Shown here one piece after another: positions 107 through 5,107 of a DNA stretch of 41,864 bases. Each line of letters opens with the position of its first letter. The first letter of the stretch is position 1. The notes under the pieces were generated by a model, which made no database searches, had not been told where the DNA came from, and saw only the letters and a list, made by a program, of their open reading frames with translations. Origin of the DNA: Lentisphaerota bacterium. Lineage in GTDB: Bacteria > Verrucomicrobiota > Kiritimatiellia > UBA8416 > JABMPJ01. The position numbers were made by a program, and so were the translations under genes. The DNA lies in the NCBI GenBank assembly GCA_013203785.1, contig JABMPJ010000126.1, forward strand, positions 1 to 41,864, in the 5' to 3' direction.

Positions 107-232
107 TCAGACCCAACACCCACGAAACTCAATCACACCCTCGCTGGGGTTCATCAGCATCTGCCGGTCGACGATACGCGACATAATGTGGTAATGGGCG
201 GGGCCGGCTTCCTTGATCCGGGACACTCTCAT
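107..232 (-). pseudogene. N-terminal remnant of a REP-associated (IS200-like, Y1) transposase
   Basis: Reading leftwards from the ATG at 232, the product starts MRVSRIKEAGPAHYH and continues with SRIVDRQMLM. This matches the usual start of REP-associated tyrosine transposases, in which an AxYHVxSRxVDR segment precedes the HUH and tyrosine motifs. Homology appears to stop after about 30 residues. The frame then runs through about ten unrelated residues to a stop at 107-109, so the catalytic HUH and Tyr parts are missing. An open frame extends upstream to 352, but the family start is at 232. It is a dead fragment. Confidence 0.55.
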
Positions 233-352: not shown

Positions 353-633
353 TGATAATCAAAGAGTTGCAAAGACCTCAGCCATCCGCTTTCGGTCTAC
401 CAGCACTCGAAAACTGCCGTCGTCCCCCTGGATACGAGCAGAATGGTCAAAGATTATGCGACCCATTCTCATAGCGAGGGATCGGCGAATGCGTGGCCTT
501 CTCAGAAGGCCTGTCCCCACCCGTTCCAAGAAGCTACAGAGACAAGTGCGTATCAGGTTGAGATCGAGGTCAATGCAGCTTCACCGGTTGACAGGGCCGA
601 ACCATGACGCAATACTGCTGTGGAGAGTGGATG
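353..633. other. gene-poor stretch between transposase remnants and the MNT gene
   Basis: I see no convincing intact gene here. On the minus strand a 37-codon frame (472 to 359) starts MRMGRIIFDH and ends EVFATL; I do not recognise it and it may be a remnant. From about 532 the stretch holds a damaged half of the local 30-base repeat and a scrap of comM, listed separately. The frame running from 456 across the MNT gene is out of phase with it and looks spurious. Confidence 0.4.
532..583 (+). pseudogene. comM remnant (codons 15-26) joined to half of a 30-base repeat
   Basis: Bases 548-583 translate to AYQVEIEVNAAS, which is residues 15-26 of the intact ComM downstream (AYPVEIEVNAAS) with one change, and the DNA is also alike. 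Directly before it, 532-547 matches the right half of the 30-base repeat that stands before intact comM, with one base lost. The complementary piece, comM codons 1-14, lies at 1334-1375 and is followed by the left half of the same repeat. Both pieces fit one ancestral comM copy with the repeat inserted in frame between codons 14 and 15. Confidence 0.6.
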
Positions 634-954
634 ATGGTGACCATGAGACAGATTCGCAATTACGCTCGGGCTGTCGCCCGAGAGTTTCGACCGGAGGAGA
701 TCATTCTGTTCGGGTCCTACGCTTACGGATCACCGACTGTTGACTCAGACGTGGACCTTCTTGTTGTGATGGACGAAACGGACAATAGGGTTCGTCAGTC
801 CGTGAAAATCCGACAGAAATTACACGCCAGCTTCCCCATGGACTTGCTCGTACGATCACCTGCTCGGATCCGCGAACGTTTGCAGATGGGAGACAGCTTC
901 ATTCGCGAGATCCTGGAAAAGGGGAAGGTTCTTTATGAAGCCTCTGACGCGTGA
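634..954 (+). CDS. minimal nucleotidyltransferase (MntA-like antitoxin)
   Basis: A single-domain nucleotidyltransferase of the DNA polymerase beta superfamily, about 106 residues. The signature is visible: FGSYAYGS, then a D-x-D pair in DSDVDLLV, and a third acidic residue in the later PMDLLV strand. All three metal-binding positions therefore look intact. The ATG at 634 is chosen because GGAG lies eight bases upstream; an open frame reaches 604, and 631 is also possible. It overlaps the following HEPN gene by 20 bases, the usual order for MNT/HEPN modules. In characterised MntA/HepT pairs the nucleotidyltransferase AMPylates and silences the HEPN toxin. That activity is inferred here. Confidence 0.85.
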   Translation: MVTMRQIRNYARAVAREFRPEEIILFGSYAYGSPTVDSDVDLLVVMDETDNRVRQSVKIRQKLHASFPMDLLVRSPARIRERLQMGDSFIREILEKGKVLYEASDA

Positions 955-1318
955 ATGGATCGCCAAAGCAGATGGCGATTTCCACAGTCTCGGTAGAGAG
1001 ATGCGGGCGAGGAAGTACCTGAACTATGACGCGGCATGTTTCCATGCTCAGCAGTGCATTGAGAAGTACCTGAAGGCTCGGCTTACGGAATCTGACAATG
1101 CATTTCCCAAGACTCACGACCTGTCGTCGCTCCTCGACCTCGTCCTCCCGCAGGAACCACTTTGGCTGGATATGAGGCCTGATCTTGAGATGTTGACCGA
1201 TTGTGCGGTTGAGTTCAGGTATCCGGGCGAATCTGCATCACGGGAGCAGGCTAGGGACGCGCATAGGGCCTGTGACCGAATAAGGCGCCGTATCCGTGAT
1301 GATATGCGCATCGCGTAA
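935..1318 (+). CDS. HEPN domain protein (toxin-like partner of the MNT gene)
   Basis: A 127-residue all-helical HEPN protein of the PF05168 type. It has the typical FHAQQCIEKYLKA helix (about residues 36-48), a KTHDLSSLL segment near 59-67, and a VEFRYPGE motif near 92-99. HEPN toxins often carry an R-x4-6-H RNase motif; here I see only the R-Y-P variant, so nuclease activity is not assured. The start follows an AAGGGGAAGG ribosome site inside the end of the MNT gene, and the 20-base overlap implies translational coupling. The pair is flanked by comM scraps, consistent with a mobile cassette. It could be a toxin-antitoxin or a stress/defence module. Confidence 0.85.
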   Translation: MKPLTREWIAKADGDFHSLGREMRARKYLNYDAACFHAQQCIEKYLKARLTESDNAFPKTHDLSSLLDLVLPQEPLWLDMRPDLEMLTDCAVEFRYPGESASREQARDAHRACDRIRRRIRDDMRIA

Positions 1319-1333
1319 TAGAGGAAGATCCCA

Positions 1334-1375
1334 ATGCTGGCTAAAGTGAATTCTGGCGCGGTGTATGGTGTCGAT
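1334..1375 (+). pseudogene. comM remnant (codons 1-14)
   Basis: The 14 codons read MLAKVNSGAVYGVD, identical in protein to the first 14 residues of intact ComM at 1519, with several silent differences in the DNA. The frame then runs straight into the nested repeat at 1376 and continues open to 1534, ending in the second copy of the comM start. The leader before the ATG also resembles the leader of the intact gene. The silent differences show that the duplication is not very recent. Confidence 0.75.
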
Positions 1376-1495
1376 CCTCCTTCGCTAACCAACGTCGCCA
1401 ACCAACGTCGCCAACCAACGTCGCCAAGGCTATGTTGGTCAAGAGGCTATGTTGGTCAAGAGGCTATGATGGTCAAGAAGCTACGGAGGACAAGT
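1376..1495. repeat. four-level nested palindromic repeat (4 x 30 bases)
   Basis: The 120 bases split into four 13-base left halves followed by four 17-base right halves. The outer left half (1376-1388) begins CCTCC, and the outer right half (1479-1495) contains GGAGG. Inside are three identical left halves (1389, 1402 and 1415, CCAACGTCGCCAA) and three right halves (1428, 1445 and 1462, GGCTATGTTGGTCAAGA, the third with one change). Each left half pairs with a right half through CCAAC/GTTGG and GCC/GGC. This is the pattern expected if a 30-base palindrome is inserted repeatedly at the centre of another. The array is open in the comM-remnant frame and ends 23 bases before the comM start. Confidence 0.85.
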
Positions 1496-1518
1496 GCTTA
1501 CAAGGGAGACTATTCTCA

Positions 1519-3057
1519 ATGTTGGCTAAAGTAAATTCGGGGGCTGTGTATGGGGTTGATGCCTACCCTGTTGAGATCGAGGTGAATGCCGCATCCCGCG
1601 GCGATCCGCAGATCGTGATCGTGGGGCTGCCTGATGCGGCGGTCAAGGAGAGCAAGGACCGCGTCTACACCGCTCTGACCAACTCCGGCTACCGGCCCCA
1701 TATTGGTCGCACGACTGTGAACCTCGCCCCGGCCGACATCAAAAAGGAGGGGCCCAGTTTTGATCTGCCGATCGCGCTGGGATTGCTGGCGGCGATGGAG
1801 GATATTGAAACCCAGAAGTTTGCCCACATGGCGATGGTCGGCGAGCTGGCTCTGAGCGGTGAAGTGCGGCGCGTGAAAGGCGTGCTCCCCATTGCGATGC
1901 GCGCTCGGGCGGAGGGGCTGCACGGGATCATCGTCCCTTTCGACAATGCCGAGGAAGCGGCCGTGGTCGAAGGTCTCAACGTCTACCCCGTCCGCACGCT
2001 GCGTGAAGCGGCCGAGATGCTCGATGGCGGCGGATTGCCCGAGCCCTGTCGGGTGGGGTTGGATCTACTGGCGCACAAATTGGATGCCTACGCCGACGAT
2101 TACGCGGATGTGAAGGGGCAGGAGCAGGCCAAGCGGGCTTTGGAGGTGGCGGTTGCGGGCGGGCACAATGTCTTAATGATTGGGCCGCCAGGGACAGGAA
2201 AGACGATGCTGGCCAAGCGGCTTCCATCGATTCTGCCTCCGCTGCATCTGGAGGAGGCGCTGGAGACGACCAAGATTCACAGCATTGCGGGGACGCTGCC
2301 AGCGCATGAGGCGCTGATCACGACGCGGCCGTTTCGCTCGCCTCATCACACGATTTCAGATGCAGGGTTGCTGGGTGGCGGCGCGCATCCGGTGCCGGGC
2401 GAGGTGAGTCTGTCGCACCGTGGGGTTCTCTTCCTGGATGAGCTTCCTGAATTTCATCGCAATGTGCTGGAGGTGTTGCGCCAGCCTCTCGAAGATGGTG
2501 TGGTCACGATTTCACGCGCGGCGGCGAGTGTGACTTTTCCCTGTGAGTTCATGCTGGTGGCGGCGATGAACCCCTGTCCATGCGGCTATTTCGCGGATAC
2601 GAAACGGGAGTGTCGCTGCAATGACCGGCAGATTCAGAGCTATCGTAACAAGATCTCGGGGCCTCTATTGGACCGCATCGATATTCATATTGAGGTGCCG
2701 ACCATCGCGTACAGCCAGTTGACGGCTTTGGGATCGGGTGAGCCTTCGGTACATATTCGTGAGCGCGTGACGCAGGCGCGACGGGTACAGCAGACGCGCT
2801 TCCGTAACACGGAGGGGCTGCACTGCAATGCGGGCATGGGGGCGAAGCATCTCCAGACTTATTGTCGTCTGGTCCCGGAAGCTCAGGAGATGTTGCGCAC
2901 CGCGATCTCCGAGCTCAACTTCAGCGCGCGAGCGTATGACCGCATCCTCAAGGTTTCCCGAACGATCGCCGATCTGGCGGGCAGCGACAGTATTCAGTCT
3001 GAGCACATCTTCGAGGCGATCCAATATCGAACTCTCGACCGGCAGTTGTGGATATGA
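1519..3057 (+). CDS. comM: YifB/ComM-family AAA+ ATPase (Mg-chelatase-like)
   Basis: About 512 residues, the normal family length. The N-terminal Lon-protease-like domain holds GLPDAAVKES near residues 36-45. The AAA+ module has Walker A GPPGTGKT (222-229) and Walker B LFLDEL (about 304-309). A cysteine cluster (MNPCPCGYF followed by CRC) and the C-terminal helical Mg-chelatase domain follow. ComM homologues form hexameric helicases that extend branch migration when foreign DNA is integrated during transformation. The open frame reaches 1432, but those codons are repeat sequence; homology begins at ATG 1519, preceded by a weak GGGAG. Two scraps of the same gene start lie upstream. Together with comEC at 22979 it hints at DNA uptake capacity. 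Confidence 0.93.
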   Translation: MLAKVNSGAVYGVDAYPVEIEVNAASRGDPQIVIVGLPDAAVKESKDRVYTALTNSGYRPHIGRTTVNLAPADIKKEGPSFDLPIALGLLAAMEDIETQKFAHMAMVGELALSGEVRRVKGVLPIAMRARAEGLHGIIVPFDNAEEAAVVEGLNVYPVRTLREAAEMLDGGGLPEPCRVGLDLLAHKLDAYADDYADVKGQEQAKRALEVAVAGGHNVLMIGPPGTGKTMLAKRLPSILPPLHLEEALETTKIHSIAGTLPAHEALITTRPFRSPHHTISDAGLLGGGAHPVPGEVSLSHRGVLFLDELPEFHRNVLEVLRQPLEDGVVTISRAAASVTFPCEFMLVAAMNPCPCGYFADTKRECRCNDRQIQSYRNKISGPLLDRIDIHIEVPTIAYSQLTALGSGEPSVHIRERVTQARRVQQTRFRNTEGLHCNAGMGAKHLQTYCRLVPEAQEMLRTAISELNFSARAYDRILKVSRTIADLAGSDSIQSEHIFEAIQYRTLDRQLWI

Positions 3058-4390: not shown

Positions 4391-5107
4391 ATGAACCATT
4401 GCGAAATCATATTGGCATCCGCATCTGCGCGACGACATCGGCTCCTGGCTGAGATGGGGGTGCCGTTCACTGTGGACGTGCCGGATGTCGAGGAGGTTCA
4501 TTATCTGGACGACCTGCATCGCAGTGTCTCTGAGAATGCGGCGCTGAAGTGTGCGTGGTGTCGGGCGCGCCATCCGGGGGCGGTGATCCTGGCGGCGGAT
4601 ACGGGGATCGAGTTTGAGGGGCGCACGATTATGAAGCCGCGTTCGCGCGAGGAAGCCGCCGCGTTTCTGCGCATGTTCTCCGCTCACACGCACACGGTCA
4701 TGACGGGTGTGGCGATGGGGGTGCCGGGCGGGGAGGTGCGGCTGCACGTGGAGTCCTCGCAAGTGCGCTTTTGGGATCTGACTGACGAGACGATTGAGAC
4801 CTACATCGCACAGGTCAACCCTCTCGACCGGGCGGGGGCCTACGATATCAATGAGTGCGGGGAGATGATCGTGGCGGGGTACGAGGGGTCGTATACGAAT
4901 ATTGTGGGGTTGCCGATGGAGGTGGTTGGGGCATGGCTGGTGGGAAGAGGGGAGGGAGACTCACCACGGAGGCACGAAGGCACGGAGAAGAGGAGCGCGG
5001 GAGAGCGGAAGAGGTCGCGAGAATCCGCCGGCGATGGAATACCCTCCTTTGCTAAAGCTGCGGAGGGCAAGCCATCGCCATATGATTCTCACGATGTTGT
5101 CCTCTAA
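4391..5107 (+). CDS. maf: Maf-family nucleotide pyrophosphatase with a repeat-derived C-terminal tail
   Basis: Maf proteins hydrolyse non-canonical or modified nucleoside triphosphates to monophosphates. The family start ILASASARRHRLL (residues 7-19) carries the phosphate-binding Ser/Arg cluster. AADTGIEFEG (68-77) holds the catalytic Asp, and YDINECGEMI to LPMEVVGAW closes the domain near residue 183. Maf proteins are usually about 190-200 residues; this one has 238. The extra tail is encoded by two dispersed repeats (4961-4993 and 5043-5072), so the original stop was probably lost when repeats entered. The start at 4391 is chosen from homology; the frame is open from 4283. It overlaps the likely upstream signals of the Dus gene. 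Confidence 0.88.
   Translation: MNHCEIILASASARRHRLLAEMGVPFTVDVPDVEEVHYLDDLHRSVSENAALKCAWCRARHPGAVILAADTGIEFEGRTIMKPRSREEAAAFLRMFSAHTHTVMTGVAMGVPGGEVRLHVESSQVRFWDLTDETIETYIAQVNPLDRAGAYDINECGEMIVAGYEGSYTNIVGLPMEVVGAWLVGRGEGDSPRRHEGTEKRSAGERKRSRESAGDGIPSFAKAAEGKPSPYDSHDVVL
4961..4993. repeat. dispersed repeat of the CACCACGGAGGCACGAAGG type, inside the maf 3' end
   Basis: The segment contains a quasi-repeated ACGGAGGCACGAAGGCACGG pattern. I recall very similar strings as a common dispersed intergenic repeat in several environmental bacterial genomes, including PVC members; this was not checked. It is read in frame by maf (SPRRHEGTEKR). It lies 50 bases before a copy of the 30-base palindromic element, so two unrelated repeat families landed in the same short region. 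Confidence 0.5.
5043..5072. repeat. single 30-base palindromic element inside the maf 3' end
   Basis: The left half 5043-5055 (CCTCCTTTGCTAA) and right half 5056-5072 (AGCTGCGGAGGGCAAGC) match, with few changes, the outermost halves of the nested array at 1376-1495. Here the two halves are adjacent with nothing nested inside, which shows what the un-nested unit looks like: 13 + 17 bases, exactly ten codons. In maf it is read as PSFAKAAEGK. Confidence 0.75.

Follow-up and report, generated by a model that had tools for sequence, protein, structure and literature searches.

Two REP superfamilies, GTAG and CGTC, have been described, and some of their REPs lie inside other palindromes (PMC3733652). 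The spread of REP-type palindromes has been called poorly understood (PMC8266576). TnpA-REP cleaves at CT, and one enzyme also at CA, the site being chosen via a tetranucleotide beside the hairpin (PMC8266576). The target of IS200/IS605 is set by short guide pairing beside the hairpin, with a preference for single strands (as summarised in PMC8266576). Tiny mobile palindromes that merge are also known as the GC clusters or double-hairpin elements of yeast mitochondria, for which the available part of PMC4478555 describes merged and stand-alone forms at a homologous site and a mechanism that is unknown. Here, we analyzed a window of 41,864 nucleotides from a Lentisphaerota bacterium, which is contig C104 of a 4.0-Mb, 229-contig MAG (G000) that is 94% complete. 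The window carries an array of nested palindromes, which is probably a non-autonomous 30-nt REP-like palindromic element that was repeatedly inserted into the loops of earlier copies.

Structure of the array and alleles at comM

The 120 bases of the array divide exactly into 4 × 13 and 4 × 17 nt, with the halves in the order LLLLRRRR, and are made up of one outer half-pair and three inner half-pairs, or 4 × 30 nt (Table 1). The coordinates bore out the half order and the half lengths that an earlier note on this DNA had read from the letters. The only mutated inner right half is the outermost of the three, which fits an order with the oldest copies outside and the newest in the center. The DNA folding of the array was no better than that of its shuffles (z -0.19).

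Table 1. Coordinates of the array, its parts, and associated features in the window
Feature	Position	Strand	Sequence or description	Basis
Y1 (HUH) transposase gene, 5' fragment	107..232	-		tblastn, 70% over 50 aa vs full-length paralogues
Second comM remnant	533..582	+	Decayed element right half AAGCTACAGAGACAAG, then comM codons from ~15 on	Sequence comparison
comM 5' fragment, duplicated	1334..1375	+	14 codons; hosts the outer element	Sequence comparison
Nested array	1376..1495	+	Four 30-nt palindromic elements (L4 R4)	Sequence, allele comparison
Outer left half	1376..1388	+	CCTCCTTCGCTAA, 13 nt	Identical in the G005 single-copy allele
90-nt insert in the loop of the outer element	1389..1478	+	Three inner L and three inner R	Deletion gives the G005 allele
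Inner left halves (three, identical)	1389-1401, 1402-1414, 1415-1427	+	CCAACGTCGCCAA	
Inner right halves (two)	1428-1444, 1445-1461	+	GGCTATGTTGGTCAAGA	
Inner right half	1462-1478	+	GGCTATGATGGTCAAGA, one change vs GGCTATGTTGGTCAAGA	
Outer right half	1479..1495	+	AGCTACGGAGGACAAGT, ends in CAAG tail	
Intact comM	1519..3057	+	YifB-like Mg-chelatase family ATPase, element-free	Empty-site equivalent GTTGAT^GCCTAC
Single un-nested copy in the maf C-terminal tail	5043..5072	+	Same family	0 expected by chance

The earlier note had proposed a comparison of orthologous loci and named a lack of empty-site alleles as the outcome that would speak against its reading. Both element-free and un-nested alleles were found. 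The comM genes of three congeners (G006, G007, and G008) are empty at this site and read ...GTCGATGC(G/A)TA..., and a comM 5' fragment upstream of comM in G005, a sister species, holds a single un-nested copy (GTCGATCCTCCTTCGCTAAAGCTACGGAGGACAAGTGCGTACAAGGGAGACTATTCTCA). The window allele equals the G005 allele plus 90 nt, placed exactly within the AA loop. When the 90 nt were excised in silico, the joined flanks were 89/95 identical to G005, with zero differences inside the element; the boundary of the insert has a 1-nt ambiguity because A is present on both sides. The outer copy lies between GTCGA and TGC of comM, where its insertion cleanly added exactly 30 nt, with no target duplication beyond one ambiguous base. 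Because the comM genes of the congeners lack the element, these alleles show that the outer copy was inserted into comM and that its loop subsequently gained the inner three (3 × 30 nt). The single copy in G005 and the empty comM alleles support the earlier reading of repeated insertion at the center of an existing copy.

The earlier note had also described the element as in-frame. The 120 bases indeed stay open in the phase of the comM remnant (ORF 1334-1534), but this ORF is a dead comM 5' fragment, so that its openness gives no evidence of selection; a 30-base insertion also keeps any frame, which makes openness weak evidence. The related un-nested copy that the note had pointed out in maf is a single element of the same family. 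It lies within a larger inverted repeat (5004-5047 and 5062-5105), in a non-homologous tail beyond the Maf domain, and no maf-tail element was seen in the compared congeners. Among all copies, 27% were in long open frames, compared with 56% of random positions (at least 60 open codons on both sides, an ORF proxy rather than annotation). The element is predominantly extragenic and is not enriched in genes, and the in-frame idea is not supported.

The start of comM is a recurrent insertion or duplication site in the window (533-1518). A decayed element and a later comM stretch (547-582) are followed by a pair resembling an MNT-HEPN toxin-antitoxin system (604-954 and 935-1318), which lies between the comM remnants, and then by the comM 5' fragment (1334-1375) and the restored start at 1519. 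The canonical comM promoter, together with a nested element, is on another contig, C6 (L085 3800-3965), as if an island had split the gene.

The element family and its nested copies

Copies from the window genome and about 30 others gave the consensus N-CCNNN-(T/G)TCGCYAA|RGCTWY-GNNGG-N'-CAAG. Of the phylum's 289 genomes, 134 had the pattern, some of them in tens of copies, and a reversed-pattern control gave almost no matches, so that the pattern is not due to chance. Copy counts rest on pattern searches, with 14 close matches in the window genome and a maximum of 33 per scanned genome at one mismatch. The numbers of single and nested copies vary by filter (95/17 in one script and 105/12 in another), and the conclusions are unchanged. 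An Rfam search with the element gave no match.

The 30-nt length, the six-base-pair variable arms, and the AA loop fit a 20-40 bp palindrome with a very short loop. The six arm pairs are mostly complementary, though the arm sequence differs from copy to copy. The outermost pair, N:N' (the first base and the base before CAAG), was complementary in 95/105 copies against a permuted mean of 41, and pairing ends at this pair, as complementarity at the next position did not exceed the permuted level. The stem also contains two conserved mismatches (C/T and T/Y). The CAAG tag was found in about 90% of copies (99/112), all of which had been preselected for a CAAG match at 3 of 4 positions.

These features bear on foldback (hairpin-templated) DNA synthesis from the center, with no insertion, which the earlier note had offered as an alternative. 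Such synthesis would account for the symmetry about the center and for arms that pair in nearly every copy, variable base pairs included. However, the inner units still have the CAAG tail and both mismatches, C/T and T/Y, so that the right halves are not reverse complements of the left ones, and the inner arms differ from the outer arms. The left halves thus did not serve as templates for the right halves, in which the stem mismatches persist. Foldback templating was rejected as largely refuted by these mismatches, and we regard it as very improbable.

Nested copies in the window genome are found on C104, C6, C76, and, twice, C200. The C6 and C104 nests share ancestry through the comM fragment; the C76 nest has the CCAAC inner unit of the comM array but a different outer element. 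Further nests were found at Kiritimatiellota MAG loci L078-L080 and L082-L084, in genomes G009, G010, G062, G098, G209, G255, G277, G347, and G353, and, outside the phylum, in an acidobacterial MAG (L077) and a WWE3 MAG (L081). Counted by eye, ~20 nested loci in about 15 genomes are independent, some others being duplicated blocks. At nearly all of them the inner unit enters between GCCA and AGGC, and a second nesting position, GGCT^ACGG or similar, is used in G098 and apparently in G172. The nested pattern was not found in viral contigs. Because nests recur at unrelated loci and in unrelated genomes, chance and assembly artifacts are unlikely sources; with about a million CA/CT sites to choose from, 25 random insertions would yield ~0.001 nested copies, compared with several nested loci in the window genome. 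Head-to-tail arrays, whose tally against nested copies the earlier note had named as a test, were seen at L241, L254, and L259, less often than nested copies, so that this test also favors the earlier reading.

Nests on different contigs could also reflect recombination between larger repeats (comM fragments, for example) that moved each nested block as a whole, with the nesting itself ancient and inactive. The C6 copy has the same comM promoter, comM start, and nested CCAAC unit, and some of the nests in G009 and in a MAG named LacPavin have common flanks and are duplicated blocks. However, the un-nested form is still present in G005, within the same genus, and the outer elements and flanks of the C76 and C200 nests are unlike those of the comM array. 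This explanation is improbable in our judgment.

The arms of inner and outer copies usually differ (CCAAC in CCTCC, CCGAC in CCAGC, and CCCAC in CCTCC). The A...T subtype, with A as the first base and T before CAAG, accounted for 9/12 nested copies and 10/105 single copies (p 2e-6). Such inner copies are predicted, since the loop provides an A and the first base of an element is often repeated directly after CAAG. By their sequences, the inner copies seem to have come from elsewhere and not to have been duplicated from the outer copy. Against this, the three inner units of the comM array are almost identical and no free CCAAC donor was found in the 94%-complete window genome, so that the initial nest may have been amplified later; the L:R counts are also unequal in L079 (4:3) and L204 (3:4).

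The same observations favor a single nested insertion followed by slippage growth, in which the 13-nt left and 17-nt right halves expand separately: the inner left halves of the comM array are identical, no free CCAAC donor was found, and unequal L:R counts occur in L079 and in the G098 arrays L203 and L204. In the window, however, the counts are equal (4:4) and the net gain is exactly 3 × 30, and slippage cannot produce most other nests, which are just two deep and have inner arms that differ from the outer ones. We consider slippage growth possible but doubtful, and repeated insertion into loops remains our preferred reading of the array.

Several arrays and copies have particular contexts. 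The G098 arrays L203, L204, and L206 are centered on GGCT^ACGG and not on the AA loop, with 18-nt left and 12-nt right halves in unequal numbers. The LacPavin MAG is the second genome with arrays more than two deep, and its loci L078, L079, L080, and L084 are deep nests of about 3-4 left and 2-3 right halves with a common longer flank. In G195 (L257-L284), most of the 17 copies are found within longer repeat units, ccgcctcccgct[element]caaccccgccctttctttggttactttctt, and the element is a passenger of this larger family. Single copies are present exactly at the 3' ends of tRNA-Leu (L239 319-348), tRNA-Gly (L241 339-368), tRNA-Ala (L256 1961-1990), and tmRNA (L109 1494-1523). The gene ends called by ARAGORN reach 3-4 nt into the element, and the encoded CCA tail seems to come from the CCA with which these copies begin.

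Target sites and the candidate enzyme

The left flank ended in CA or CT in 43/105 single copies against 9.6 expected, an enrichment of about 4.5-fold. The base after CAAG was the same as the first base of the element in 70/105 single copies, compared with 38 after permutation (maximum of 56 in 20000); three nested copies (L072, L170, and L172) break this matched-base rule. The C(A/T) left flank is a suggestive match to the TnpA-REP cleavage site, although an inexact one, as the tag here lies 3' of the hairpin on the C(A/T) strand.

Some single copies (L017/L018, L101, L212, L227, and the one in maf) are within the loops of other palindromes. A stem score of at least 7 was found at 7/103 non-nested copies against 1.4 expected, which is a clear but small excess over random positions, and most single copies are outside recognisable hairpins. 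The earlier description of the element as self-targeting holds in that its own loops are used repeatedly, but other hairpin loops are used too, modestly above chance.

Three general rules were rejected. A hairpin target preference applies to only a minority of the non-nested copies. One-base target duplication as the sole rule fails for T...A inner copies at GCCA^AGGC with a following A, and 7-nt target-site duplication applies to few loci only. Direct repeats of 7 nt flank the 30-nt unit at L102, L108, L247, L254, and L196, some of them low-complexity or tandem, and the length of 7 is commoner than chance. Seven listed copies have direct flank repeats of 5-8 nt, some in low-complexity or tandem context.

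In the mechanism that we propose, the element would move as a folded single strand into single-stranded DNA, for example the tip of a hairpin that is extruded or forms on the lagging strand. The enzyme would act in trans and, much as IS200/IS605 and TnpA-REP enzymes do, would use guide pairing to recognize C(A/T) together with a base that matches the element. Each new copy would rebuild the identical loop GCCA^AGGC, so that nesting could go on from the center. In the window lineage, one element entered comM, and 90 nt were then gained in its two-base AA loop, giving LLLLRRRR. More tentatively, the element may name its own target: its variable foot base, which pairs with the first base, would specify the flanking target base and steer A...T copies into AA loops, leading to self-nested arrays. 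If true, a single base would guide transposition in this minimal system, and hairpin tips would be its landing sites.

The earlier note had named the enzyme class of the Y1 fragment at the window's left end as the candidate mover. The fragment gave no Pfam match by itself but is real by its identity to paralogues, and the window genome has at least 14 Y1 matches, full-length paralogues of the fragment included; full-length Y1 ORFs of 346 aa lie on C59 and C114. However, the element was absent from the flanks of Y1 genes at 43/44 loci inspected, and these 44 included all 14 listed for the window genome. The only Y1 locus with a copy in range was L163, where a comM-linked nested copy is about 1.2 kb away, which looks coincidental. 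The expectation of more copies in genomes with Y1 was borne out weakly: element and Y1 counts across the 289 genomes gave a rho of 0.24 (among the Y1 matches listed, at most 14 per genome, with relatedness uncorrected), and Y1 was present in 31/33 genomes with at least 5 pattern matches (odds ratio of 6, relatedness uncorrected). Some carriers of the element have no Y1 match. G195, which is one of them, was discounted as a counterexample because a single longer repeat contains most of its copies. Y1 as the proven enzyme was rejected for want of linkage to the element; a Y1/HUH transposase is a plausible leading candidate for the mover.

Relation to known mobile palindromes

A literature search of partial coverage on the element sequence, the CAAG-tagged family, and recurrent insertion into its own loop found no description, and the RepRanger paper has no mention of CAAG/CTTG or of this phylum. 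The element belongs to an apparently undescribed REP-like family with unusual self-nesting. Within one genus, alleles with no copy, one copy, and a four-deep nest occur at the same site, which lets the movement of a tiny element be followed with rare directness, and the clean insertion junctions and empty sites are valuable for understanding how REP-type palindromes spread. For this family, which has members in several phyla, the ends of the element can be read almost without ambiguity from nested copies, and nested hairpin arrays may act as a built-in record of insertion order. The C(A/T) rule and the matched base make the mechanism open to simple oligonucleotide tests with the Y1 enzymes of these genomes.

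The yeast GC clusters differ in that they are mitochondrial and have AG/ACT direct repeats, and the available part of PMC4478555 describes no matched-base rule of loop insertion for them. Unlike IS200/IS605, the element contains no transposase gene, and the guide role of its base before CAAG is our inference. Rickettsia palindromic elements (RPE) are similar in being short palindromes with a length that is a multiple of three and some copies in open frames, whereas coding enrichment is absent here and, of the two copies in the window, one lies in a dead fragment and the other in a tail that is not conserved. Because the in-frame claim is unsupported, the comparison is better made with REP. In contrast to the GTAG and CGTC REPs, the element carries a CAAG tag (CTTG when read from the other strand), and copy numbers are low (14 in the window genome and at most 33 in any) where theirs are often >100. 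The element does not flank Y1/RAYT genes as a cognate REP does in a REPtron, and its stem arms are freely variable, unlike those of REP. With the REP/BIME of RAYT/TnpA-REP, it shares an imperfect palindrome of 20-40 nt, a tiny loop, a conserved unpaired tetranucleotide at one foot, an extragenic bias, and conserved stem mismatches like those of E. coli REP.
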